From Flavobacteriales bacterium (GTDB lineage Bacteria; Bacteroidota; Bacteroidia; NS11-12g; UBA955): a DNA stretch of 48,630 nucleotides. The notes under the pieces are model-generated. The model worked only from the letters and a program-made list of their open reading frames with translations. It was not told the origin of the DNA and did no database searches. The position numbers were made by a program, and so were the translations under genes. The stretch is taken from the NCBI GenBank assembly GCA_947487175.1, contig CANKVM010000009.1:1-48630 (forward strand), given 5' to 3'. The first letter of the stretch is position 1; every line of letters begins with the position of its first letter. Positions 34,180 to 48,551 of this stretch are shown here, piece after piece.

Positions 34180-37100
34180 TTAATTCACAAGCAATTTATC
34201 AATCTGAATATACGAATCATCTGTTCTTACCATAATTAGGTATTCGCCAGGTATTAAATTGCTAATATTCAGTTTATATGACTTATTTACTTCAATGGTT
34301 TCATTCATTATTAATTGACCCAAAGTATTTAATATTTCAAACTGTCCATTTACTTTCGAATCAAAACGCACAAAGTCTTTTGAAGGATTTGGATAAATGC
34401 GACTGCCATATTTTAGAGGATTATTTTTAATTCCCACAGACATTAATACCAATCTATTTGTAGAATCACTGACACAACTGCCATTCTTATAGATTACCCT
34501 GTAACCGCCTTTTTTAGTGGCATGAATGAAGTTATTTGTGCCAGTTCCAATCTTGACGCCATTTAAATACCAATCAAGTTGACCACCAGCTGGTTTGTTT
34601 AAAACAAACAAAGTATCGTTGCTACAATAAATAACAATATTTCTGTAAGTCAATTTCACATTCATAACATTACTAAATGCTGTTTTAGGAAATGCACATT
34701 TGTAAGTTGAAGCCGCTGAAATTTTATATGCCACACTATCTTTTTGTTTTGGTAACACCTTCATGAAAGTATTTGTATCTGATGTTCCTGAAACTCCGTT
34801 TTTATACCAGGTATATTTTAACTTCAAATTCTTCATCATTGTATCAGCATGGGTTGATGTTAATCTTAATGTATCGTCTCTGCATATGCTTAGTTTATCG
34901 GCAAAGGCATTCATTTTCATTCCAATGGTATCAATCACCGTAACACTCTTTGTTTTGCTATTCATTCCAGAATTATTAGAAACCTTAAGCGTAATGAAAT
35001 ATCTTCCTGCCTTTGATAATTTAATTTTCGGACTTTTAGAATTACTATCACCAGTTGTGAATTTTACATTAGTGCTCGGATTAACAGTCCATTTCCAATT
35101 TAATGGATTATTCATTGACGAATCTATCAAATTCACAATTTGATTTGAACAAGGCAATGTATCAGAAATGCCAAACTTTGCAATAGGATCCTTAATGGAC
35201 CAAGCATTTGAGGTAAACACCCCTCTCCCATGTGTTACCGCCATTAAAAGCTGATCTGAAGACCTGTATTTAAGTTGCAAAGTTTTTACTGCCGACATGC
35301 CCAAATTATAAGGTGTCCAAGTTGGGCTTGACGCATAAATATTGTCTGTTCCATATATTCCTAGCTCGGTTGCTATTAATGCTTCTCCTAATTTTGAGGG
35401 ATTTAAAACAATTGACCAAACCGGAACATCTGGCAAATCTCCATCTTTTGCGGTCCAATTCGAACCACCATTTATTGAAATATAAATATTGTTAATACCA
35501 TAGTTAGAAACGGTAGCTGCCATTGTGTCCGTTGTTTTATGCCTAAATAACGATGAAGCATTTCCGCTTGCAAGTGTACCCATTTGGGTAAAGGTTGGCG
35601 TAGTAGCCCAAGCATCGTTTGTTTTCCAAACCGTTCCAATATCAGTTCCTACGTAAAGTACTGACTTTAAAGTTAATGGATCTTTATTAACCCAAAAACA
35701 ACTCCCTTTTCCGGGTGAACCACTCGATTTTACAGTAATTGTACTCGGTGTAACGGCGGCACCTCCTGTAATTTTTGTTCTATATAAGGTTAATGCATCT
35801 TTTGTAGAAATTAATCCAGATCCATTATCATCCCAAATTGCCGGATTGATGAATTTACCAGTGGCCCCATCATTCAATAGATAATCACTTGATGCCCAAT
35901 TATCAGTTGTGTAATAATATGTATTATATACATATCCAGTTATTTGAGTTTGGTTATTTGAAGCACTTATAAAACAAAAAGAACCATCGCCACCTGTTAC
36001 CATATTCCAATTTGAAACGCCTGCCCCAACTAGTTGATGGGTGCCATTATCCTGCGCTCCAGCTAGATACAAATCATTCGATGCCGTTTGAGACAAATCA
36101 CCCGCATAAAACTGAGTTGCAAAATATCCATTATTTCTTTGAGCTGTTATATCTTTTGTAGCAGGACTATTTGTAATATTGGCTGAATAGAAAACTCCAC
36201 CATCGCAGCCAAACATAATTTCACCTAAACTTTTTGGCTTAAATACTGCAACATGTTGGTCTGCATGTACATATGAGCAATTTAAGCTACCTAAGCCTGG
36301 ATTATTTGACCATTTGCTAATTTGCGCCCAAGAAGAACCGCTATTACTAGAATAAAACAAATCAATTCCACCAACAATAACAATGTTTGAATCCAATGGA
36401 GAAACACTTATTGTTAAATCGTACCAAGCCTGTCCCCTCGTAAAATCTGTACCTGGAATTCCATTATCAGCATCCTTTGGTTTTTTCATAGATGACCATG
36501 AAGATCCTTGATTTCTTGTTTTTATGAGGGTATCTGCTTTTCCACTTGATTCAAACAATGCATAAACTGTATTAAAATCATTTGGAGCTACTGCAATTTC
36601 AACCCTTCCCAAATTGTTCGTATGAGAATAATTGGTTGTCCAGGTTGTTCCATTATCTGAATACATAACCCTACCTCCACCTCCATCAGATGATGAGGAA
36701 CCATAAGGAGAGTTTCTTGTACCAATCCAAAGTCTATTGTCTTCAGCTATTTCTATGTCCGAAACCGAATAGGTATATGTTTTACTAGTTACATTCCCTA
36801 ACGCCGATGACCAACTTGCGCCACCATTCGTACTTCTCTTTAGTCCGTAACCTGAAATTCCATTCCATTGACCTTGGAAATACAAGGCATCAACAGCCGC
36901 ATAAACAACCGAAGTTCCTGACTCATTGCGAACAGCAATATCATTTATATAATAAAATGCAGAAGTGATTGAAATTAAGTTAAAAGTTGCTCCACCATCG
37001 GTACTCTTATATATTCCTTGTCCCCTTGAAGAACTAGAGCTTGATCCCCATCCCTCACCAGTTCCAATGTACATTATTTTAGAATCGTTTGGATCAAATG

Positions 37101-37632
37101 CGATACATGAAACTGTAACATTTGCCCAAACATCACTCACAGAAACCCATGAACTTGCTGCACTCGTGATATCATTATTATACCATAAACCACCTGTAAC
37201 AGCGCCGGCCCATACTTTTTTGCCTTTGGCATCATTGGGATCCCATGCTACAGCACGCGTTCTTCCACCCACATTATTTGGACCTCTTAATTGCCATTTA
37301 GAATTCGAAGTTCCTGGCTGAAGTGCAATTGCATCATTATTATTAAGTAATTTATGAATCTCTGCTGTTAAAACTTCTGGCGTTGGCCTGCCCAACTTAG
37401 GATTTATCGTAGTTAAATATTCTTGTTCCCAATATTTATCAGGAGTCGCATATTTCGCAATTTTCTCAGTTTTGGATTTTTCTTGACCCTTAAGGAATTG
37501 TTTTGAAATACGTTTTTGCATTCTTGCGTATTTTCGGGTGCTAATATTATCGCAATTGTTAACTTGAGAATAAGCAAAGGTACATACTAAAGTTAGCAGA
37601 GCTAGAAAGACTGATTGTCTTATGTTTTTCAT
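34180..37632 (-). CDS. T9SS-exported Asp-box (BNR/VPS10-like) beta-propeller protein
   Basis: This 1150-residue secreted protein has a signal peptide ending near Y-S-Q (about 23). Residues about 110-780 form sialidase/VPS10-type propellers with at least five Asp-box motifs (STDGGATF, STNGGASW, SDNGTTW, SSNSGSSW, SINGGSNW). These are followed by a PKD-like domain (about 830-920), an Ig-like module, and a type A T9SS sorting domain (YPNPSKDFVRF to GEYLIMVRTD). No sialidase RIP or catalytic Tyr/Glu set is evident, so a glycan-binding or structural role is more likely than hydrolysis. It begins 5 nt after hmgA, so the two may be cotranscribed. Confidence 0.8.
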   Translation of the reverse strand: MKNIRQSVFLALLTLVCTFAYSQVNNCDNISTRKYARMQKRISKQFLKGQEKSKTEKIAKYATPDKYWEQEYLTTINPKLGRPTPEVLTAEIHKLLNNNDAIALQPGTSNSKWQLRGPNNVGGRTRAVAWDPNDAKGKKVWAGAVTGGLWYNNDITSAASSWVSVSDVWANVTVSCIAFDPNDSKIMYIGTGEGWGSSSSSSRGQGIYKSTDGGATFNLISITSAFYYINDIAVRNESGTSVVYAAVDALYFQGQWNGISGYGLKRSTNGGASWSSALGNVTSKTYTYSVSDIEIAEDNRLWIGTRNSPYGSSSSDGGGGRVMYSDNGTTWTTNYSHTNNLGRVEIAVAPNDFNTVYALFESSGKADTLIKTRNQGSSWSSMKKPKDADNGIPGTDFTRGQAWYDLTISVSPLDSNIVIVGGIDLFYSSNSGSSWAQISKWSNNPGLGSLNCSYVHADQHVAVFKPKSLGEIMFGCDGGVFYSANITNSPATKDITAQRNNGYFATQFYAGDLSQTASNDLYLAGAQDNGTHQLVGAGVSNWNMVTGGDGSFCFISASNNQTQITGYVYNTYYYTTDNWASSDYLLNDGATGKFINPAIWDDNGSGLISTKDALTLYRTKITGGAAVTPSTITVKSSGSPGKGSCFWVNKDPLTLKSVLYVGTDIGTVWKTNDAWATTPTFTQMGTLASGNASSLFRHKTTDTMAATVSNYGINNIYISINGGSNWTAKDGDLPDVPVWSIVLNPSKLGEALIATELGIYGTDNIYASSPTWTPYNLGMSAVKTLQLKYRSSDQLLMAVTHGRGVFTSNAWSIKDPIAKFGISDTLPCSNQIVNLIDSSMNNPLNWKWTVNPSTNVKFTTGDSNSKSPKIKLSKAGRYFITLKVSNNSGMNSKTKSVTVIDTIGMKMNAFADKLSICRDDTLRLTSTHADTMMKNLKLKYTWYKNGVSGTSDTNTFMKVLPKQKDSVAYKISAASTYKCAFPKTAFSNVMNVKLTYRNIVIYCSNDTLFVLNKPAGGQLDWYLNGVKIGTGTNNFIHATKKGGYRVIYKNGSCVSDSTNRLVLMSVGIKNNPLKYGSRIYPNPSKDFVRFDSKVNGQFEILNTLGQLIMNETIEVNKSYKLNISNLIPGEYLIMVRTDDSYIQIDKLLVN

Positions 37633-37637
37633 AACTT

Positions 37638-38795
37638 TTATTCAACCCAAGATTTATAATAATTAGGATCTTCAACAGACATGGCTTCTTCCGTAATCAT
37701 CAAAGGATAAAACGGATCTATCATTACGGCGAGTTCTTGGGTTTCTTTTTTACCAATACTTTTTTCAACGGTTCCAGGATGTGGACCATGGGGAATTCCT
37801 TTAGGGTGTAAGGTTATCATTCCCCTTTCAACATGTTTACGGCTCATAAAATCGCCAGCAACGTAATACAATATTTCATCGCTATCAACATTGCTATGGT
37901 TGTATGGTGCTGGTATTGAAAGCGGATGGTAATCATAAAGCCTAGGAACAAAACTACAAATTACGAAGTTACGTCCCTCAAAAGTTTGATGGATTGGAGG
38001 TGGTTGGTGAAGTCTGCCTGTAATAGGTTCAAAATCGTGTATGCTAAACCCGAAAGGATAAGCATAACCATCCCAGCCTACCGCATCAAAAGGATGAGAA
38101 CCGTAAGTATAAGGGTAAATGATATTTTGCTTTTTAATCAATACTTTAAAGTCGCCCAATTCATCATGCGTTTGCAAATTCTGTGGCACTTTTATATCTC
38201 TTTCGCAATATGGAGAATGCTCAAGTAATTGACCAAATGAGTTTTGATATCTTTTTGGGGGATAAATTGGCGTTGGAGATTCAGTAATCATCAAACGATT
38301 TTGAGTAGTATCAAATTCAAATTGATAAATTGTACCTCTAGGAATTACTAGATAATCGCCATATTCAAATGGAATTTCTCCAAAAATAGTTTTCAGCTTT
38401 CCAGTTCCCTCATGAATGAAAATAACTTCATCGTTGTCGCTATTTTTAAAGAAATAATCAGAGTTTCCTTTAGTTGGAGCCGCCACAGATATGGTTAAAT
38501 CACTATTTGTCAATAAAGCTTTTCTGCTTTTCAAGTAGTCATCTTCCGGTTTTGTGTTAAAAGTGACAAAACTCCTGCTTTGCATATTTTGTTTCAATGC
38601 AATTTTGGGTTCAACACTATACGGTGTTCCTATTTCCTTAACCAAAGTTGGTGGATGGCAATGATATACCAATGAATATAAGCTATTAAACCCTTCAGTA
38701 CTTATTAATTCTTCCGAATATAAAGTCCCATCTGATTTTCTAAACTGAGTGTGTCTTTTTGGAGGGATATTTCCCAATTTGTAATAAAATGCCAT
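37638..38795 (-). CDS. hmgA: Homogentisate 1,2-dioxygenase
   Basis: This is a 385-residue cupin-fold iron(II) dioxygenase from the ATG at 38795. The ORF extends 18 codons upstream, but conserved sequence begins at MAFYYKLGNIPPKRHTQFR. The enzyme opens the homogentisate ring to maleylacetoacetate in tyrosine and phenylalanine breakdown. Likely iron ligands are the His of YNHSNVDSDE with the acidic residue after it, and the His of IPHGPHPG. GWDGYAYPFGFSIHDFEP is typical of the shorter bacterial HGD branch. Other tyrosine-catabolism genes are not nearby. A large T9SS gene follows after 5 nt. Confidence 0.9.
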   Translation of the reverse strand: MAFYYKLGNIPPKRHTQFRKSDGTLYSEELISTEGFNSLYSLVYHCHPPTLVKEIGTPYSVEPKIALKQNMQSRSFVTFNTKPEDDYLKSRKALLTNSDLTISVAAPTKGNSDYFFKNSDNDEVIFIHEGTGKLKTIFGEIPFEYGDYLVIPRGTIYQFEFDTTQNRLMITESPTPIYPPKRYQNSFGQLLEHSPYCERDIKVPQNLQTHDELGDFKVLIKKQNIIYPYTYGSHPFDAVGWDGYAYPFGFSIHDFEPITGRLHQPPPIHQTFEGRNFVICSFVPRLYDYHPLSIPAPYNHSNVDSDEILYYVAGDFMSRKHVERGMITLHPKGIPHGPHPGTVEKSIGKKETQELAVMIDPFYPLMITEEAMSVEDPNYYKSWVE

Positions 38796-38916
38796 ACAGA
38801 ATGTTATCGAATTACGAATATAATTATTGTCTTCCAATAAATGAACCAAATGCCAAAAGTCTTAGTTAAAATATATCTATTCAACGAAAATAAAACAGTT
38901 TTAAATTTTAAATTAG

Positions 38917-38941: not shown

Positions 38942-39859
38942 ATGAAATCCATAAAATTGACATTTCGATTTTTATTCATCTCTTTTCTCTTTGTTTCATG
39001 TACCAAAGAAGAAATTGTCATTCGCAACAACAACAATCCTCCAAAGTATTCAGAGGTATCCACCTTAATGGTAGAAAACTACATTAATCGATTATTTATT
39101 GATATCTTAGGCAGAGAGGCTACCGATGTGGAGCGAACTGAATATGTTTTACAGTTAAGAAAAGGCAAATTAAGCCAGAACTCAAGAGATTCACTTGTCA
39201 AAATATTACAACTCGATACAGTATTTAGAATTGGAGATTCCAGCTATCGAAAGGCATATACATCAAGAATTTACAATATTTGCAAATCTAGATTTCTGGA
39301 AGGAGCTGCAGACATGGACATTGCTCAGCAATCATCAAATTTAGGATTTGGAATTTATTTAAGTCAATTAGACGGCGATTCGGTTACAATGTATACCTAT
39401 ATCAACCTAAAAAAATACTATGACCGCATCTTAAAAAGCAATTATTGGTTAAGTCGCAATAAAATTACATACAATCAGCTTTGCGAGTATATGTTGAATA
39501 ATGGAATTTACGACTTAATAAACATGGGTTCCTTTAATTTCGTGAATGCTACCTACGATAATATTTATGGCAGAAAGCCAAATGCAGACGAGTTTAATCG
39601 TGCTTATCAGATTATAGAAAAAAACAATCCTAGATTTATATTCAACAGGGTAATTTCTAATAAAAACGAGTATTGCGAAGGCATAACTTCCAATAATGGG
39701 TTCTATGAAGCCGAAATTAGGTGGTGGTACTTCCAATTTATAAGAAAAGAAATAAACTCAACCTTTTTGTATCCCATTTTGACCAATTTCTTAAAAGATC
39801 ACAACTTTGAAAACATGCAACGCAAGATATTAATCACCGACGACTATGCGCAATTTTAA
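38942..39859 (+). CDS. Lipoprotein with DUF4214/DUF1549-like helical modules
   Basis: This is a 305-residue predicted lipoprotein (lipobox V-S-C, Cys20, followed by T-K-E-E, a likely surface-export motif). Two regions share a helical pattern: YINRLFIDILGREATDVERTEYV (quoted in part, about residues 42-65) and NATYDNIYGRKPNADEFNRA (about 200). Both resemble the Y-x-x-h-h-x-R-x-P-x-x-x-E core of DUF4214 modules and the start of DUF1549 domains. I do not recognise a characterised family over the full length. It is the first gene of a tightly packed operon and overlaps the next gene by 14 nt. The function may be as a binding partner of the DUF1501 protein; that is inference. Confidence 0.7.
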   Translation: MKSIKLTFRFLFISFLFVSCTKEEIVIRNNNNPPKYSEVSTLMVENYINRLFIDILGREATDVERTEYVLQLRKGKLSQNSRDSLVKILQLDTVFRIGDSSYRKAYTSRIYNICKSRFLEGAADMDIAQQSSNLGFGIYLSQLDGDSVTMYTYINLKKYYDRILKSNYWLSRNKITYNQLCEYMLNNGIYDLINMGSFNFVNATYDNIYGRKPNADEFNRAYQIIEKNNPRFIFNRVISNKNEYCEGITSNNGFYEAEIRWWYFQFIRKEINSTFLYPILTNFLKDHNFENMQRKILITDDYAQF

Positions 39860-40349
39860 TACTAAACATATTATTAAAGTGGCGATTTTCAATATATTGA
39901 TAATCAACATATATTGCACGAAAGAAATCCATGTTCAATACCAAGTTAATTCCGCTTATATTTATGAATCAAAAGCGCAAAAATTCAAAAACAAGAATGA
40001 AGCTGAGTATATTTCTATCCTCTATACTGGTCTTTACCAAAAGGCAATTGATCCTATGGAATTATTTCAAGCACAAAGTGTATTATACAGCATTGGAGAC
40101 CAAAATGTAGCCAAGGAAATGTTGCTTAGTGGTTACTTTAATAATCCCAAAATCATTATTCCAAGCAATGCTGAAATGAGAAATGATATTCCTTCTTTTA
40201 TTACTGAAACCTATAAGCGATTCTATTTAAGATACCCGTCAGAAGCGGAAAAAGTTTATTTCACAAATTATATTAAAAACAATCCAGAAGTCACTGTTGA
40301 GTTGATTTACACTTCATTTTCAACCAGCGATGAATATTCATTTTATTAA
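39846..40349 (+). CDS. Small lipoprotein with DUF4214-like modules
   Basis: This is a 167-residue protein with a hydrophobic signal and likely lipidation at Cys24 (context N-I-Y-C; Tyr before Cys is unusual for a lipobox), followed by T-K-E. Two helical repeats resemble those of the upstream protein: EYISILYTGLYQKAIDPMEL (about 55) and ITETYKRFYLRYPSEAEKVY (about 118), the latter ending in the S-D-E-Y typical of DUF4214 ends. It overlaps the previous gene by 14 nt and lies 6 nt before the DUF1501 gene. Function unknown; the shared fold suggests the two proteins act together. Confidence 0.65.
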   Translation: MRNFNTKHIIKVAIFNILIINIYCTKEIHVQYQVNSAYIYESKAQKFKNKNEAEYISILYTGLYQKAIDPMELFQAQSVLYSIGDQNVAKEMLLSGYFNNPKIIIPSNAEMRNDIPSFITETYKRFYLRYPSEAEKVYFTNYIKNNPEVTVELIYTSFSTSDEYSFY

Positions 40350-40355
40350 AAAGAC

Positions 40356-41696
40356 ATGAGAAGAAAAGAATTTATAAAAAAATCTACCCTTACTGTTGGT
40401 GCTGGTATTGTTGCACCGTATATATTGCCTTCAGGTAGATTATTTGCAAAATCAGGAATAGAAAAAGCAGAACATGTAGTTATGGTTATGTTTGCTGGCG
40501 GTGTTCGTCAACAAGAGAGTATTTTAGGTAGGTATTTAGAAGATAGCCAGGGAGTTTCAGGTGTGGCAGGAAATATTATGCCCAATTTATTCAATGGCAA
40601 CGCTCCTACTAAAAAAATCGTTTATGGTCAAGATATCCCGGGTCAAACAAGAGGTTCTGATCCTATTCCACGTTTGCTTTCCGACGCTTTAGCAAATAAA
40701 GGAATGACATTTAATGAGGTTCGTGCGCAAAGTGCAGGGCATTATGTAGGTTTAAATACCTTACTTACTGGAAGTATCAGCACGGCGCAAGGTTTGAAAA
40801 CTAGGCCATTATCCCCCACTATTTTTGAATACTTGAGAAAACACAGAGGGTTCAAAGCTACTGATTGTTGGTTCGTAGGAAATGGCATAGGCAATAGCAC
40901 TCCTCTTTTAAACGCAAGTACAAATGAAAATTACGGACTCAATTTTGGCGCAAATATGTTTATCCCTCCTATTACTTTTGGAAGCTACGGTCAAAATACA
41001 CTTTCGAATTCTAAAGCATATTCAAACAATGAATTAAAGCCTATGTACGAGATGAAAAACTTCTTAAACAATAGTTTTGCTTTAGAAAACTCTCGACAAA
41101 CTACTATTAAGAATACAGATGATGAAAGAACGCATATAAAAGAATTCATGAGAGCAACCTATACCAAACAAAGTTTAGGTCAAATTTCAATGCCACCTGC
41201 TGTTAGTTCCACAGATGCTTTCAATGTTGCCTATTCAGCTGAAATATTGAAAGAATTTAAGCCAAGAATGCTTGCTGTGAATATTTCAGAGGTAGATGGT
41301 TGCCATTCTAATTTTACAGGCTATTTAAGGAGTTTACATAGAGCCGACCACATAACTGCGTGGCTTTATGATTATATTCAAAATAATATCCCCGAAATGA
41401 AAGACAATACGGTATTTATTGTTGCTCCTGAGTGCGGCCGAAACTTGAATCCGAATCCAATTCTTGACGAAAACGATTGGATGGCATTTGATCATTCAGA
41501 CGCCAATTCATTGAGAGTATGGAGCTTAATGGTTGGTAAAAATGTACCTAAGGTTTCTGTTGGTTCTGAGGGAAATCCAATTGGAAGATTAACAGATTTA
41601 GTTCCAACCATTGCGGATATATTTGGAGTTTATGATGATGTAATGAATTCAGGATATATTGACCCTATGGCTATGAGTCAATTTTTGAGAGTGTGA
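40356..41696 (+). CDS. DUF1501 family protein (alkaline phosphatase/sulfatase superfamily)
   Basis: This is a 446-residue protein matching DUF1501: an N-terminal export signal (RRKEFIKKS then a hydrophobic stretch with G-A-G-I-V-A-P-Y), the family segment VVMVMFAGGVRQQES (about 47), and near the C-terminus VAPECGRNLNPNP followed by MAFDHSDANSLRVW, holding the acidic and His residues of the superfamily's metal site. DUF1501 proteins are usually Tat-exported and paired with DUF1800 or DUF1549/DUF1553 proteins; no enzymatic reaction is established. Here the partner genes are small DUF4214-like lipoproteins instead. The Tat-like motif reads R-K at the normal twin-Arg register, with RR one residue earlier. 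Its stop overlaps the next GTG start. Confidence 0.8.
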   Translation: MRRKEFIKKSTLTVGAGIVAPYILPSGRLFAKSGIEKAEHVVMVMFAGGVRQQESILGRYLEDSQGVSGVAGNIMPNLFNGNAPTKKIVYGQDIPGQTRGSDPIPRLLSDALANKGMTFNEVRAQSAGHYVGLNTLLTGSISTAQGLKTRPLSPTIFEYLRKHRGFKATDCWFVGNGIGNSTPLLNASTNENYGLNFGANMFIPPITFGSYGQNTLSNSKAYSNNELKPMYEMKNFLNNSFALENSRQTTIKNTDDERTHIKEFMRATYTKQSLGQISMPPAVSSTDAFNVAYSAEILKEFKPRMLAVNISEVDGCHSNFTGYLRSLHRADHITAWLYDYIQNNIPEMKDNTVFIVAPECGRNLNPNPILDENDWMAFDHSDANSLRVWSLMVGKNVPKVSVGSEGNPIGRLTDLVPTIADIFGVYDDVMNSGYIDPMAMSQFLRV

Positions 41697-42625
41697 AAAA
41701 CATAATTATATCTATATCGCTAATTACAATTTGTATTTATTTAGAATCATGTTCTAAAGAGGCCTTGCCTATAAACCAATTTGGTCCCAACCAACAAGAT
41801 ACCAACAAATTGGATACGAACAATTATGATCCATATTCAATATTCTCAATTCATAAAGATGTTTTGAAACCAACTTGTGCAAATTCAGGATGTCATGACG
41901 GGAATTTCGAACCAGATTTCAGAACAGTTGAAAGTAGTTATTTTGGATTGATCAACGTAACACCAATTAAATCAAATGTTTCTGGAGGATTCCCTTTCAG
42001 GGTTGTTCCTGGTGATGCTTCGAAAAGTATGTTGTTACAAAGAATGACAATTGATTTGAACGGCAATTCTGGTATCATGCCTCTTGCTCTAGAGCCTAAA
42101 TCAACTTATAATCAACACAAATCCGAGTATTTGCAAAGAATCACAAAGTGGATAAACGATGGAGCAAAGGATTTGGCTGGAAATTTGCCCACTGCTCCGA
42201 ACTTCCCTCCAAATATTCAAGGAGTTGTGTTTATTCAAGGAAACAATATTTTGGCAAGACCCGGATTATACGAAGCAGCCAATGCCACAGCAGGGATAAA
42301 TACAACTGTATATTTTTCATTATCCGATGATAAGATAGATCAAAGCCAATTAAAAAACTGCACAATTAATGTAAGTGTAAACCCTGATTCATTCAATGTG
42401 GTTAATGAAAAATCTCTTAATGCTGGGCCTGAAAAATTCATGAACGATTTAAATGGGAAATTAGTGAAATATTGGTATAACTACGATTTGCAAACAAGTG
42501 CCACAATTTCGTTAGATGTTTTGTGGATTCGCATTACAGTTACAGACGATGTTCAAACTGTTCAATTGCCAAATGAAAACTCTATGTTTCCAATAAAAAA
42601 ATACTTTGCTATAAGATTTAAATAA
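41693..42625 (+). CDS. Lipoprotein with cytochrome c-like CX4CH domain
   Basis: This is a 310-residue lipoprotein starting with GTG at 41693 in a GTGA overlap. Lipidation is at Cys20 (E-S-C), followed by S-K-E. Residues about 50-165 match the planctomycete-type cytochrome c domain found in Bacteroidota: VLKPTCANSGCHDG (Cys62, Cys67, His68), V-V-P-G-D-A-S-K-S-M-L (about 108), a Met-containing segment G-I-M-P, and W-I-N-D-G-A. The heme motif is CX4CH rather than CX2CH, a variant recurrent in this domain family; whether heme is attached is unknown. A second beta-rich domain follows to the C-terminus. Operon position suggests a role with the DUF1501 protein. Confidence 0.75.
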   Translation: MKNIIISISLITICIYLESCSKEALPINQFGPNQQDTNKLDTNNYDPYSIFSIHKDVLKPTCANSGCHDGNFEPDFRTVESSYFGLINVTPIKSNVSGGFPFRVVPGDASKSMLLQRMTIDLNGNSGIMPLALEPKSTYNQHKSEYLQRITKWINDGAKDLAGNLPTAPNFPPNIQGVVFIQGNNILARPGLYEAANATAGINTTVYFSLSDDKIDQSQLKNCTINVSVNPDSFNVVNEKSLNAGPEKFMNDLNGKLVKYWYNYDLQTSATISLDVLWIRITVTDDVQTVQLPNENSMFPIKKYFAIRFK

Positions 42626-43080
42626 TGACTTTTAAAATATACAATATATTACATATAGCAATATTTATGGCTTTGTTGTTTCCTATCTGTAAGGAAGAAA
42701 TAGTTTCTAATGTGGATCCTATTCCAAACATACAATTTATATCTATTTCAAGCACCAAATTGAAGCAATTTTCGGATAGTTTGGTGGTTACTTTGAAATA
42801 TAAAGATGGTGATGGCGACCTCGGTGATGTATCAGCCGATACCCTATCTATCTATGTAAGAGATTCGAGACTTTCAAAGCCAGATTATTATCACTTATTT
42901 CCTTTATCCCCAATTAACAATAAACTGAGCATTGATGGATTGTTGAATATCAAGATCAAAAATATATTCCTGCTATCTACAAGTCCCTCAGAAACTACAA
43001 AATTCGAAATCAAGCTCAAAGACAGGGCGAAAAACTGGAGCAACACTATTTTTACTCCAAATATTGAAATTATTCCATAA
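42625..43080 (+). CDS. Small putative surface lipoprotein, function unknown
   Basis: This 151-residue protein has an N-terminal hydrophobic stretch and a likely lipid-attachment Cys22 (context F-P-I-C, a weak lipobox) followed directly by K-E-E, resembling a surface-export motif. The rest is beta-rich with a D-G-D-G-D-L-G acidic turn (about residue 70), a feature seen in many uncharacterised Bacteroidota lipoproteins and suggestive of calcium binding. The start overlaps the previous stop (TAATG), and the next gene begins 6 nt on. I do not recognise a named family. Confidence 0.65.
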   Translation: MTFKIYNILHIAIFMALLFPICKEEIVSNVDPIPNIQFISISSTKLKQFSDSLVVTLKYKDGDGDLGDVSADTLSIYVRDSRLSKPDYYHLFPLSPINNKLSIDGLLNIKIKNIFLLSTSPSETTKFEIKLKDRAKNWSNTIFTPNIEIIP

Positions 43081-43086
43081 TCAAGT

Positions 43087-46000
43087 TTGAAATTCACTGG
43101 ATTCATAACGCTCCTATTTTGTTCAATATTTTGTGTAAATGTATATGCTCAAACTATTCAAAATCAACAAAATGGAATATATAGAATTTGCAAAGGGAAA
43201 ATTAGAGATTCCGAAAAGGGTAAAACCACAGGATATTACGATCACAATGAAAAGATAATCATGACGTTAGCGCTACCTGGTGCTAAAAATATCACGTTAT
43301 CTTTTAAAAGTTTTTGCACTGAAAAAGACAATGATGTTTTAAAAATTTACGATGGTAAAGATACAAACGCTACATTAAAAGGATCATACTCAGGTAGCGT
43401 CAGTATTGGAAATATCACGAGTAGCGACAGCTTTATAACTTTGTATTTTGTGTCAGATAAAAGCGTTTCATGCACGGGATGGGAAGCTGAAGTGATTAAT
43501 AATATAAATATCCCAACGGCCACCAAAATTACTTTAAACAGTTCTCCTATCTGTTACGACTCAACATTGGCAATTACGCTCGATTTTACAATACCTTGTG
43601 ATTCATTAAATATTAGCAATACCAAAATCAACGGAAATGACTTTAATTACATCATTCCTCTTAATTGTGTCAATAACAAAGCTTCTAGATTTAAATTAGG
43701 TTTAAAAAATCCATTAAATACAAACGGCACATATACAATTACCCATAAACATGGATATCGAGACTATTGCGATAGCGTTTATCAATTATCAAGTAGCCAA
43801 ACCTTTGTAATTTCAAACTGCCCCATTTTTGTTGATATAAAAAGCAACAAGGATACTATATGCCTTGGTGAATGCATTTCCCTATCTATCAATATTAGTG
43901 GCGGAAATGCAGCTAAATACACTTATAATTGGACTCCTAAGACATTATCAGGCAAGGGGCCATTCAATATCTGCCCAAAGGTAAATACCAAATATAAACT
44001 TACTGTATCAGATGGAAATGCAATTCCAGGATCAGACTCTTTGCAAATAATCGTGCTTCAGCCACCTGTTGCACCTAAAGACACACAAGTTTGTTATTTA
44101 TCGTCTAATATTTTCTTAAAAGGCTTCCCTAGTGGAGGGAAATGGTTTGGACCTGGTATTGTCAATTCAATAAATGGAGAGTTTAAACCATATGGCCAAT
44201 GGGGCGATGTGAAAGTTTGGTATAAAATAGGTGGCTGTGCCGATACCATGATTATCAATGTGACTTATCCTTACAATTACGACAATGTATTCTGCCCGAG
44301 CAAAACTGCTTCGCCAGTAGTTTGGTACGGTCCACTTGGAGGGACATGGTCAGGTTTAAAAATCACCAAAACCGGCATGTTTACGCCTGATAGCGCTGGA
44401 AAGTATGTATTAACCTATACCTGGAAAGGCTGCGTATCTCAGAAAAACGTGGTAGTCCAAAATGTTACAGTACCGCAATTTGATACAACGTGCGAATCAA
44501 AAACATCAGATACACTAGAATTCAAACCCTATGGAATATATCCATACTATTTTCCAGGACTAATTAATGGGTATTACGGATGGTATAATCCCAGTTTAAT
44601 GGGTGGTCCTGGTAATAGAAACATTATTTTCACCGCACTCGGTGGCTGCACTGACACCACTAAATTAACTATTTTACCTTGTTATGCTGGAAAAGATGAT
44701 ACGATTTGCCCCAATACAAATAATTATAACTTGTTAAACATTAGATATTTGAATGCATTCGACTGGACTGGCAAGGGAATTAAAAACTCTAAAGTAAGTA
44801 ATTATGATGCAAGTTGGACAAATGGCAAAAACGGGATTGATACATTGGTGTTTAAATCAGGCAAATGCATTGATTATAAAATAATTAAAATCATAGGCAC
44901 TGCCATCAATTATGCCGATACAATGGATCTTTGTAAAGATGCCGATACATTTATTTTGTCAAATAAAATCCCTGTCAACCTTCCTAAAGGTACATGGTCG
45001 GGTACTGGTGTAATAAATGGGGTTAAATTTGCTCCTAAAAACTTATCATCAGGCAATTACAATGTTTCATATTCTAAAAACGGTTGTTCTGACAATATCA
45101 TTTTACGTATACTTCCGAAACCAGTCGTGCCAAACGACACAAGTATTTGCATACAATCAAATCCAATTGCACTAATTCCATCTATAAAAGGTTCTGTGTT
45201 TTGGGGTACAGGCATGCAATATGGTTTAAAACAAGAATTCAACCCTTCCCTTTCAAAATCTGGATTATTTAAAATCAATTACTTAACCCCTCTTGGTTGC
45301 ACAAGTTATTTCAGTATCACTGTCGATACTTTGCCAATTATTAGCTATAATTACCCTACTAAAACATTTTGTTTCAAAGACTCCTCTATATTGTTATCAA
45401 TGAAACCATTGGGAGGAAAATACGAAATTGATGGATATTTAAACACTTTATTTAACCCTGGAAAGTTAAATATTGGCAATCATAAGCTCATTTACCTTGT
45501 AAACAGCAAAAGTTGTTTCACAAAAGATTCATTTGATATTGTCATTTTAGATAGTATTCATTTAATATTATCGCCAAATAGCGATAGTTTATGTAAGGGT
45601 GAAATGGCTATTTTGCAGGCAAACGCCACTGGAGGCATCGGAAACTACACTTTTTGGTGGTCAAATGGTCAAAATGGATACAAAACCATCGTCTCACCTA
45701 AGACCAATATTACATATACATGTTATGCAAGTGATGGATGTAGTAATATTGTAAATCAATATATTAACATATTAGTGCATCCAGTTGTATGGAGCAAAGC
45801 ATTTGTAAACGATCCTGTTTGTTATGGGCAAAATGGATATGCCTATTTAAGCAGTGGAAATGGCAATCCAATTAGGAAAACTTGGAATTACCCCGGAAAG
45901 GTTTCCAATGATACCTTTTATGCACCAAGTGGCAGTTCTTATAAGGTTTTTTTGATAGACAGTGTAACCAAATGTTTTTCAGATACAACAATTTATCTTC

Positions 46001-46566
46001 CGGGATTTGCAGCCATCAAAGCGCAATTCACAATGCAACAAGCATTAAATCCACCTTGCTACACGCCCGAAGAGGTTCCACTAATAATTTACAATGCCAC
46101 AACCGGAGCAACCAAAGGAACTTGGTTTGTGAACTCAACGCCGTTAGATACATTTATTTCTGGCTTCAACCCTATTTTCAATAATGATTTCAAGCAAAGT
46201 AAATACACTATAAAACTTTCAGTTGAAAATAATATTGGCTGCAAGGATACAGCTGAAATCAAAATATGTTACAAAGACACCGTTATTCTTTATATCCCAA
46301 CTGCATTCACCCCGAATAACGATGGATTAAACGACGTTTTTCAGTGGACAAGCTATGGTTGTACTCAAATTGGGGTGATTATTTATAATAGATGGGGCGA
46401 AATCATTCACAAATCAAATGATTTAAAGGGAATTTGGGATGGGAAAATTAACGGAAATGACTGTCCCGAGGGTGTTTATGTTGTTTATGTTGAATACAGA
46501 GGATTGCGATTCGCTAAAAAAACTTTAACACAATCCATCCTATTGCTGCGAAATATTAATAAATAA
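43087..46566 (+). CDS. Giant CUB-domain surface protein with seven repeats and type B T9SS signal
   Basis: This 1159-residue protein starts with TTG at 43087: an in-frame stop lies 9 nt upstream and a clean signal peptide (to A-Q-T, about 24) follows. Residues about 30-140 are a CUB-like domain (LSFKSFCTEKDNDVLKIYDG, then FVSDKSVSCTGWEAEV). After Ig/PKD-like segments, residues about 329-821 hold seven about 70-residue repeats, each with a D-T-x-x-C start and a G-C near its end. A PKD/SprB-like unit follows at about 835. The end is the gliding-motility-type C-terminal domain (IPTAFTPNNDGLNDVF, then NRWGEIIHKS), a type B T9SS signal. It is expected at the cell surface, possibly as an adhesin. 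Last gene of the operon. Confidence 0.85.
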   Translation: MKFTGFITLLFCSIFCVNVYAQTIQNQQNGIYRICKGKIRDSEKGKTTGYYDHNEKIIMTLALPGAKNITLSFKSFCTEKDNDVLKIYDGKDTNATLKGSYSGSVSIGNITSSDSFITLYFVSDKSVSCTGWEAEVINNINIPTATKITLNSSPICYDSTLAITLDFTIPCDSLNISNTKINGNDFNYIIPLNCVNNKASRFKLGLKNPLNTNGTYTITHKHGYRDYCDSVYQLSSSQTFVISNCPIFVDIKSNKDTICLGECISLSINISGGNAAKYTYNWTPKTLSGKGPFNICPKVNTKYKLTVSDGNAIPGSDSLQIIVLQPPVAPKDTQVCYLSSNIFLKGFPSGGKWFGPGIVNSINGEFKPYGQWGDVKVWYKIGGCADTMIINVTYPYNYDNVFCPSKTASPVVWYGPLGGTWSGLKITKTGMFTPDSAGKYVLTYTWKGCVSQKNVVVQNVTVPQFDTTCESKTSDTLEFKPYGIYPYYFPGLINGYYGWYNPSLMGGPGNRNIIFTALGGCTDTTKLTILPCYAGKDDTICPNTNNYNLLNIRYLNAFDWTGKGIKNSKVSNYDASWTNGKNGIDTLVFKSGKCIDYKIIKIIGTAINYADTMDLCKDADTFILSNKIPVNLPKGTWSGTGVINGVKFAPKNLSSGNYNVSYSKNGCSDNIILRILPKPVVPNDTSICIQSNPIALIPSIKGSVFWGTGMQYGLKQEFNPSLSKSGLFKINYLTPLGCTSYFSITVDTLPIISYNYPTKTFCFKDSSILLSMKPLGGKYEIDGYLNTLFNPGKLNIGNHKLIYLVNSKSCFTKDSFDIVILDSIHLILSPNSDSLCKGEMAILQANATGGIGNYTFWWSNGQNGYKTIVSPKTNITYTCYASDGCSNIVNQYINILVHPVVWSKAFVNDPVCYGQNGYAYLSSGNGNPIRKTWNYPGKVSNDTFYAPSGSSYKVFLIDSVTKCFSDTTIYLPGFAAIKAQFTMQQALNPPCYTPEEVPLIIYNATTGATKGTWFVNSTPLDTFISGFNPIFNNDFKQSKYTIKLSVENNIGCKDTAEIKICYKDTVILYIPTAFTPNNDGLNDVFQWTSYGCTQIGVIIYNRWGEIIHKSNDLKGIWDGKINGNDCPEGVYVVYVEYRGLRFAKKTLTQSILLLRNINK
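44071..45549 (+). repeat. Seven degenerate ~70-codon tandem repeats within the CUB/T9SS gene
   Basis: Each unit begins with a cysteine block (DTQVC, NVFC, DTTC, DTIC, DLC, DTSIC, KTFC). Most then carry a G-G/G-x-W-x-G-x-G-like turn, an F-x-P or N-P motif and a G-x-Y-x-V-x-Y strand, ending in a Cys, usually as Gly-Cys (GGC, KGC, GGC, KC, NGC, LGC, SC). Two Cys per unit suggest one disulphide or cross-link per module. The units are divergent at DNA level, so this is an old protein repeat rather than a recent expansion. Confidence 0.75.
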
Positions 46567-46581
46567 CCCGAATTTTGAATT

Positions 46582-48189
46582 ATGTATTCTTCTTTTTGGA
46601 TTTATCAGCAGTGGGCTTCTTTTTTATTTAACAGGATACATAAATACAAATTAATCCATTCACTCAGTTACGATAAGGATTCTATTTTCTTATTCTTTCA
46701 ATCTAATAGCGATCATTTTGCATTAGAATTGAAATTTATTGGTGGTGAATTGTTTCTTTTGCAATCAGATAAAATCCCAAACGATTCCAAAACAAAAGGA
46801 CATTTCCAATTTAAACAACTTGACAATGCAACTGTAACCGACGTTGGAACCAGAATTTTTGACCGTTTAATTTACATCGAATTCAATAATGGGTGGAAGC
46901 TTTGGCTGAAAGGATTTGGCAGATTTGGCAATGTATTGTTGCAAAATCCAAATTCCGAAACGGCTGAGAGTATATTTAGGCTCAATATTAAGGCAGATTG
47001 GGAGCAAAATATCAATGAATGGGATAATTACAAATTATCGTTTTTAAACAATAGGATCATTGTTCCGGATAAAAATATCATTGATTTGGCTTTTTGGAAT
47101 ACAATGGTTAAATCAGTTACTTTCGAGAAATTGGTTGAATATGGATTTGATGCAGATTTCTTTCAAATGTTAGATTACAAAATGCAGTGCAGAAGTATTT
47201 TTATCTTTCTAACTCAGAATATTCGCAATATTTATTTCGGAATTATTGAAAAAGGTAAGAAATTAAATGTTGAATTCCATTTCGATTCCTCGGTTGTTCG
47301 CACGACTGAAGATTGTATTATAAATATAGAAAATGTAACCAGTGAATTTGTTAGATGGTACTTTTTCCATACTTTCAAGGAAACATTTATCGACGCTACT
47401 ACAAAAAAGATCAAGCAAGACAAATCCCTTTTGAGTGGCTATGTAAAAAGGTCCCTCGAAATCAAAGAAAGGCGCAGTTACAGAGAAATTGGTGATTTGA
47501 TTTTGGCGCACGCACACAGCATTGGCAAGGGTGTAACTAACGCGTTGGTTATGGATTATTATACCAACCAAAGAATTAGGGTGAAACTTGATTCGCAATT
47601 GTCGGCGCCAGAAAACGCACAAAAATATTATCGCAAGGCAAAAAATGAGTACTTAGAACTTCAAAAACTAGATGAAAGTATTCAAATGGTACAAAGCAGA
47701 ATGCGAACCAATGCTGAGGATTTAGAAAAAGTAACTGATGCTACGCAATTCAAAGACATCAAAGAAATTGCAAAGAAAAACGGCACACCATCATCAAAGT
47801 CAAATACCAAAACAATCCAAACCTTACCATATAAGCTTTATGATTTTGAGGGATATGAAATTTGGGTTGGAAAAAACGCGCGCTCCAATGATGAATTAAT
47901 TCGTTTGTCGAGCAAAAATGACTTATGGCTTCACGTTCGCGATTATTCTGGATCACATGTTATAATTAAGCAAAAAGGCAGAGACTTTCCTCAATCAATT
48001 ATCGAAAAAGCGGCAAATTTGGCTGCATTTCATTCGAAGGCAAAACATCAAAAATTGGTTCAAGTAATTTATACCTTGAGAAAGTATGTTTCTAAGCCTA
48101 AGAAATCACTCCCTGGCGAGGTAAATGTCTTGCAAGAGGAGTTCATTGATGTAGAGCCAAAAGATTTTCAATTAATAAAAAGCGAATAA
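46582..48189 (+). CDS. NFACT family protein (RqcH-like)
   Basis: This is a 535-residue protein with NFACT architecture: an NFACT-N domain containing F-D-R-L-I-Y-I-E-F (the Asp-Arg pair conserved in RqcH, about residue 93), a central coiled-coil region (about 335-400), and the C-terminal NFACT-R (DUF814) domain with DLWLHVRDYSGSHVIIK (about 450). RqcH/NEMF proteins bind stalled 50S subunits and recruit tRNA-Ala to add alanine tails in ribosome-associated quality control. The role in Bacteroidota is inferred from homology. It begins 15 nt after the T9SS gene. A near-consensus -7 box GAATTTTG 6 nt before the ATG suggests it may have its own promoter. Confidence 0.88.
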   Translation: MYSSFWIYQQWASFLFNRIHKYKLIHSLSYDKDSIFLFFQSNSDHFALELKFIGGELFLLQSDKIPNDSKTKGHFQFKQLDNATVTDVGTRIFDRLIYIEFNNGWKLWLKGFGRFGNVLLQNPNSETAESIFRLNIKADWEQNINEWDNYKLSFLNNRIIVPDKNIIDLAFWNTMVKSVTFEKLVEYGFDADFFQMLDYKMQCRSIFIFLTQNIRNIYFGIIEKGKKLNVEFHFDSSVVRTTEDCIINIENVTSEFVRWYFFHTFKETFIDATTKKIKQDKSLLSGYVKRSLEIKERRSYREIGDLILAHAHSIGKGVTNALVMDYYTNQRIRVKLDSQLSAPENAQKYYRKAKNEYLELQKLDESIQMVQSRMRTNAEDLEKVTDATQFKDIKEIAKKNGTPSSKSNTKTIQTLPYKLYDFEGYEIWVGKNARSNDELIRLSSKNDLWLHVRDYSGSHVIIKQKGRDFPQSIIEKAANLAAFHSKAKHQKLVQVIYTLRKYVSKPKKSLPGEVNVLQEEFIDVEPKDFQLIKSE

Positions 48190-48314: not shown

Positions 48315-48389
48315 GGGAGATTAGCTCAGCTGGTTCAGAGCATCTGCCTTACAAGCAGAGGGTCACTGGTTCGAACCCAGTATCTCCCA
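48315..48389 (+). tRNA. tRNA-Val (anticodon UAC), copy 1
   Basis: A 75-nt cloverleaf: acceptor GGGAGAT/ATCTCCC, D-stem GCTC/GAGC, anticodon stem TCTGC/GCAGA with loop CTTACAA (anticodon TAC), T-stem ACTGG/CCAGT with loop TTCGAAC, discriminator A. CCA is not encoded (the following bases are CCC). Confidence 0.97.
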
Positions 48390-48395
48390 CCCTTT

Positions 48396-48422
48396 AAAAG
48401 CCTCAATTTTTGAGGCTTTTTT
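48396..48422 (+). terminator. Terminator after tRNA-Val copy 1
   Basis: AAAAGCCTCA pairs with TGAGGCTTTT around loop ATTTT and runs into T residues, closing the first tRNA-Val unit before the second promoter. Confidence 0.9.
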
Positions 48423-48431
48423 CATATTAAT

Positions 48432-48462
48432 TTTGAATAATAAAAACTTAACAATATATTTG
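48432..48462 (+). promoter_or_regulatory. Promoter of second tRNA-Val (TTTG-N19-TATATTTG)
   Basis: TTTG (48432-48435), exactly 19 nt, then TATATTTG (48455-48462), the same elements and spacing as the first copy although the spacer sequence differs. Confidence 0.8.
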
Positions 48463-48473
48463 CACCACCGAAA

Positions 48474-48548
48474 GGGAGATTAGCTCAGCTGGTTCAGAGC
48501 ATCTGCCTTACAAGCAGAGGGTCACTGGTTCGAACCCAGTATCTCCCA
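48474..48548 (+). tRNA. tRNA-Val (anticodon UAC), copy 2
   Basis: Identical over all 75 nt to copy 1, with anticodon TAC. CCA is not encoded. It has its own promoter and terminator, so it is a separate transcription unit. Confidence 0.97.
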
Positions 48549-48551
48549 CAT

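Follow-up and report, generated by a model that had tools for sequence, protein, structure and literature searches.

Why are six genes for exported proteins packed head to tail at one site of this Flavobacteriales genome, and do they form a single system or a chance assortment? The preliminary description saw in them a surface operon built around a DUF1501 protein with unusual partners. To judge this, one needs to know whether the six genes are inherited as a unit, what the third of them encodes, and how the partners relate to families that are already known. The window (the whole stretch of 48,630 nucleotides that was analysed) contains the following features at this site.

Gene A, 38942 to 39859, forward strand: helical lipoprotein of 305 residues with a predicted DUF4214 / phycobilisome-linker-like fold.
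Gene B, 39846 to 40349, forward strand: helical lipoprotein of 167 residues with a DUF4214-like repeat.
Gene C, 40356 to 41696, forward strand: exported protein of 446 residues, predicted to belong to the alkaline-phosphatase superfamily.
Gene D, 41693 to 42625, forward strand: lipoprotein of 310 residues with a CX4CH c-type haem domain and a C-terminal region of unassigned fold.
Gene E, 42625 to 43080, forward strand: lipoprotein of 151 residues with an acidic turn.
Gene F, 43087 to 46566, forward strand: T9SS type B protein of 1159 residues.
hmgA-like (cupin) gene, 37638 to 38849, reverse strand: points away from the operon and borders the variable site on the left.
NFACT (RqcH-like) gene, 46582 to 48189, forward strand: begins 15 nt after F and borders the variable site on the right.

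From A to F, successive genes overlap by 14 nt, lie 6 nt apart, overlap by 4 nt, overlap by 1 nt and again lie 6 nt apart; the coordinates of the reading frames and all five junctions are as originally claimed. A scan for sigma-70 promoters was uninformative, as it found fewer sites than in shuffled sequence.

The A-F operon is real and has evolved as a unit. Searches for C covered 108 genomes of the order, and those for A and D 107 each; the three genes are single-copy in almost all genomes. Of these genomes, 64 are of high quality (completeness of 90% or more, contamination of 5% or less). Taking high-scoring orthologues only, the same 43 of the 64 carry C, A and D, and all three are absent from the other 21. 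Even within one genus, some genomes have all three and others none. These genome-by-genome searches covered A, C and D, while for B, E and F inheritance was judged from the regions retrieved around C. A-B-C-D-E keep a constant order and strand in almost all loci of sufficient length; F stands downstream of E in those that extend far enough, also in distant lineages; and the short junctions are retained in most loci. Conservation extends out to loci of Saprospirales, where C is 46-48% identical. One exception (genome G073, locus L032) has D cut short, no visible E and a short frame for F, which reflects either a deletion within the operon or faulty assembly. Sampling 392 genomes across the phylum added only one genome with an orthologue of C, and there too A, B, D and E are its neighbours; the remaining matches to C are remote genes of the alkaline-phosphatase superfamily.

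The conserved order and strand, the retained short junctions and the matching genome distribution of A, C and D put the six-gene arrangement far beyond chance. A, C and D are inherited together, and B, E and F are their conserved neighbours. Far from being rarely neighbours, homologues of the six genes are regularly so in the loci examined, and the proposal of a single system located at the surface or in the envelope is well supported by this co-inheritance and conserved neighbourhood.

Is this system built around a DUF1501 protein? Gene C had been described as a DUF1501 member of the alkaline-phosphatase superfamily, and in our opinion only the second part of that description can be kept. AF2 models C with low overall confidence (mean pLDDT 55, pTM 0.67), and the core of the model matches PafA with a VIA Z of 16.0 (3.6 A over 242 residues) and sulfatases with a Z of about 15, within a range of Z 14-16 across the superfamily. 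The alkaline-phosphatase-superfamily fold is thus a well supported prediction for C. The profile closest to C is that of superfamily lipoproteins with Phosphodiest and Sulfatase matches (HH probability 99%, E 7e-20). Pfam and NCBIfam gave no convincing family match for C, and the Pfam DUF1501 model (PF07394) matched none of 21 members, that is, C and 20 relatives. Run over the genome of the window, PF07394 finds two other loci (L001 and L002), C not being among them; run over 59 genomes of the family, it does not list C. Against the DUF1501 genes that share a genome with it, C scores near zero (HH probability 1-3%). Membership of the family is rejected on the negative PF07394 result and this near-zero match. 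A separate N-terminal match between C and DUF1501 proteins was due to similarity of signal peptides and was gone after trimming.

A looser resemblance of C to DUF1501 lies in its motif pattern. The order D-x-H, E-x-GR, DH in C resembles that of DUF1501, and a profile of C combined with the lone C genes described below matches a broad DUF1501 profile in motif register (score 44.1 over 246 columns, HH probability 67%; shuffled controls reach at most 24.2 and unrelated profiles 11-16). Since the fold matches, since the closest profiles belong to the alkaline-phosphatase superfamily, and since the register match is only to the broader profile, we conclude that C is an alkaline-phosphatase-fold protein, DUF1501-like in motif pattern, and not a DUF1501 member. 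That, as first read, it is nevertheless simply a DUF1501 protein accompanied by small partners seems to us very unlikely: the motif register, a similar R-[RK]-x-F-type signal and the moderate score to the broad profile would fit, but this reading already fails on membership in both the Pfam searches and the same-genome comparison.

GG48-49, R51, H129, D314, H317, E359, GR361-362 and H380 are invariant in C. In a remote alignment with the superfamily, His129 takes the position of the Ser/Thr nucleophile, Ala47 takes that of the Asp, and Glu359 replaces Asp in the D-H pair; a Ser/Thr nucleophile with the full set of two-metal ligands is not seen in C in this alignment, and D, H and H of one metal site are apparently retained. 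C shares its predicted fold with PafA, the sulfatases and Phosphodiest proteins, with an active site that is changed according to this alignment. Because the usual nucleophile is missing, hydrolase activity of C should not be assumed.

The two loci that PF07394 did find, both on other contigs, are observations in their own right. At L001:832-1935 there is a true DUF1501 gene, and the reading frame after it resembles, as judged by eye, an MBOAT acyltransferase; at L002:670-2253 there is a true DUF1501 gene with a T9SS tail. A DUF1800-DUF1501 pair has been reported adjoining bacterial chitin synthase genes (PMC5122149). Such a pair resembles the operon in joining an exported DUF1501 protein to a partner gene; it differs in that DUF1501 proteins, some of them T9SS-tailed, are found at other loci of the same genomes.

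If C is not a DUF1501 protein, what are its partners? Gene A has a lipobox cysteine (Cys20) within a signal-like CTKEE and matches Pfam DUF4214 (PF13946) with 24.6 bits, over the cut-off of 23.2. B, with its lipobox at Cys24, reaches 19.3 bits in the window, below the cut-off, and all but one of 21 relatives of B match DUF4214 at E<=0.1. The notion of two DUF4214-like lipoproteins therefore holds for A and weakly for B. The AF2 model of A is of high confidence (pLDDT 88) and matches phycobilisome linker domains with a VIA Z of up to 10.7, unrelated entries staying below 7, so that a linker-like fold is well supported as a prediction for A. The likeness to the phycobilisome linker domain (pfam00427) and DUF4214 lies in this fold, and in DUF4214 being detected in A and B; A differs in being a lipoprotein, and in an identity of about 8-14%. 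The N-terminal domain of RsaA was too weak a match for A (Z 5.9), and DUF4882 and similar matches on A, each from a single member, were taken as chance.

Pfam also hints at another relationship. Relatives of A have weak PSCyt2 and PSD1 matches, and 6 of 21 relatives of B match PSD1 weakly; these weak matches do not reach the DUF1549 or DUF1553 cut-off in A or B. Comparison of profiles goes further. When set against fused PSCyt1-PSCyt2-PSD1 proteins, the profiles score 47.9 for D, 36.0 for A and 35.1 for B, where shuffled profiles score at most 23.2 (at most 21.9 for D) and unrelated real profiles 13-21. D aligns on the PSCyt1 domain, A by its first helices on the start of PSCyt2 (DUF1549) and B on the end of PSD1 (DUF1553). 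By HH probability the links of A, B and C to the module are remote (A 22%, B 35%, and 67% for C with DUF1501), and the matches of A and B could come through a generic helical hairpin. A longer match of D to the fused proteins, over 141 columns, was set aside since it included signal peptides; trimmed alignments retain a shorter one. The fused PSCyt1-DUF1549-DUF1553 gene itself adjoins a DUF1501-type gene in 11 of the 12 Bacteroidota loci checked, most of these neighbours being recognised by a home-made DUF1501 profile and one by its signal, size and place.

We take these remote profile matches to support a correspondence of A, B and D to DUF1549, DUF1553 and PSCyt1, with C linked weakly by profile to DUF1501. 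Together with the DUF1501 neighbour in 11/12 fused-gene loci, they suggest that the operon is a split and diverged version of the module. The partners called unusual in the preliminary description are probably diverged forms of the usual ones, as profile comparison indicates. The operon and the widespread planctomycete-type module (PF07635-PF07583-PF07587 with PF07394) have in common a haem domain, DUF1549- and DUF1553-like helical parts, an alkaline-phosphatase-type partner and export. The operon differs in having separate small lipoproteins, in its CX4CH in place of CXXCH and in a C that fails Pfam DUF1501, and it adds E and the T9SS protein F. The PSCyt/DUF1549/DUF1553/DUF1501 group has been reported without known function (PMC5615132, PMC4452313), and the literature that we searched gives none.

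The haem motif of D was read correctly as CX4CH, not CXXCH, and in an alignment of 22 members C62, C67, H68 and M129 are invariant. Pfam PSCyt1 (PF07635) matches none of the 22, yet a PSCyt1-type pattern is there, consisting of the haem ligands and, in the C-terminal half, VPG..S.L..R...MP...WI..GA. A VirK match on D came from a single member and was taken as chance. E has a lipobox cysteine (Cys22) and, in an alignment of 22, a conserved acidic turn Y.DGDGDLG. No family was found for it, and in Pfam and NCBIfam neither D nor E has anything beyond chance-level matches. The idea that E is a paralogue of the C-terminal region of D was not supported.

Could D be the centre of a surface electron transfer system, with C and F as accessories? 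The invariant CX4CH and Met would suit this, as would the haem-attachment (cytochrome c assembly) family PF01578, present in all 64 high-quality genomes. But these genomes have the attachment machinery whether the operon is present or absent, and the operon shows only one haem site, with no multihaem or porin-cytochrome parts. We regard such a system as highly improbable.

The predicted place of the proteins in the cell is better supported. The lipobox cysteine is conserved in A, B, D and E, and many members of C have the R-[RK]-x-F-type signal, with TatC encoded in the genome. The surface export signal (LES) of lipoproteins has the consensus C-X-K-(D/E)2 after the lipobox (PMC5080379); residues after the cysteine resemble it best in A and B, most members of which have K, R or Q two residues after the cysteine and an acid close behind, and less so in D and E. 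With the T9SS sorting domain of F described below, the lipobox cysteines and the signal of C well support the prediction that A, B, D and E are lipoproteins and that C and F are exported, and likewise an envelope or surface location for the operon proteins.

The site between the hmgA-like and NFACT genes has three states among relatives: the full operon, a lone and fast-evolving C, or nothing. A lone C of about 290-365 residues occupies it in G105, G097, G102, G061 and G062 (L132:11884-12927, L133:2575-3591, L134:2553-3416, L137:5203-6300 and L138:9574-10662), genomes that have no A or D; G103 and G096 have no gene of C type between the two flanking genes. All five lone C proteins keep GG48-49, R51, H129, D314, H317, an acid at 359, GR361-362, N367, D371 and H380, and they are missing certain residues and about 100 amino acids that the C of the operon retains. 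Their very long branches make the exact placement in a tree unsure. The occupation of the site by a lone C suggests that the core chemistry of C can function partner-free; this chemistry may also outlive the partners, and the missing parts would then have served the partner proteins.

Gene F fits its description as a CUB-bearing T9SS type B protein. Pfam detects CHU_C (55.8 bits) and CUB (40.5 bits), and NCBIfam TIGR04131 (48.8 bits); with CHU_C and TIGR04131 both over cut-off, F is identified as a T9SS type B client. It combines the CUB domain and the CHU_C sorting domain with tandem Ig/PKD-like repeats and 38 cysteines. It is also fast-diverging, with 27-29% identity between lineages, against about 47% for C. 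Many of the 38 cysteines are invariant between lineages, which together with the steadiness of C, the place of F directly after E and the short junctions of most loci would agree with A-E being a dedicated assembly set that folds, modifies or places F as a disulfide-rich T9SS fibre. D would be a redox partner for the disulfides, and C would add or remove a group on F or its anchor. Yet A-E showed no thiol-disulfide domain, D is of a mono-haem cytochrome type that is not a known disulfide oxidase, and a lone C can stay at the site where F is absent. We think this arrangement rather unlikely.

It may instead be asked whether an A-E module and an adhesin-like F were joined early and merely share a transcript. 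F is the most variable member, and CUB, PKD and CHU_C are common building blocks of T9SS proteins. Indeed, Aureispira GhpA, which like F has tandem Ig-like repeats and a T9SS C-terminal domain, has only these in common with it; GhpA has 5898 residues to the 1159 of F, the CUB domain belongs to F, and nothing in F points to hook formation as in GhpA. We rejected the GhpA match as one of generic repeats and sorting domain. But the place of F after E, in the loci that reach it and across distant lineages, is too constant for a passenger, and we hold two separate units to be quite improbable.

Our preferred reading is that A-F form one exported envelope system, a split and strongly diverged relative of the PSCyt1-DUF1549-DUF1553 and DUF1501 pair to which F and E have been added, acting on a surface or captured polymer. 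We give this statement as a whole an even chance, its structural and evolutionary parts being more secure than the biochemical ones. What the operon does biochemically we infer as follows. In the outer membrane, A and B would provide a helical scaffold to keep C and D in place; C, exported and probably folded with metal, would carry out chemistry on an envelope or captured polymer bearing phosphate or sulfate; D would pass electrons or sense redox state at the same place; and F would reach the surface via T9SS and bind outside material. The role first suggested, binding or processing of a polymer with a redox component, is possible. A bolder version, which we consider unlikely, is that a T9SS fibre or captured polymer is modified or mounted by an alkaline-phosphatase-fold enzyme that has an invariant His at the nucleophile position and works together with a CX4CH cytochrome and linker-like lipoproteins, a surface machine absent from the papers that we found. 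If it were true, the whole PSCyt/DUF1549/DUF1553/DUF1501 group would gain its first function. The parts of the fused module are hard to study singly, while in the operon they are separate genes; with full, lone-C and empty states occurring naturally at one site in one genus, the contribution of each part becomes testable.

Some observations concern the surroundings of the site. NFACT borders the operon in the family of the window and is not adjacent to it in more distant lineages. Homogentisate dioxygenase models match the hmgA-like gene with scores far under the NCBIfam cut-off, yet in the relatives examined its identity is about 77-97%, operon present or absent. Beside or near it in these relatives is a T9SS type A protein with a PKD-like domain, encoded in the window at 34180-37632 (1150 residues). 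At the other end, 3' of NFACT, the window has a tandem pair of tRNA-Val (tac) genes at 48315-48549.
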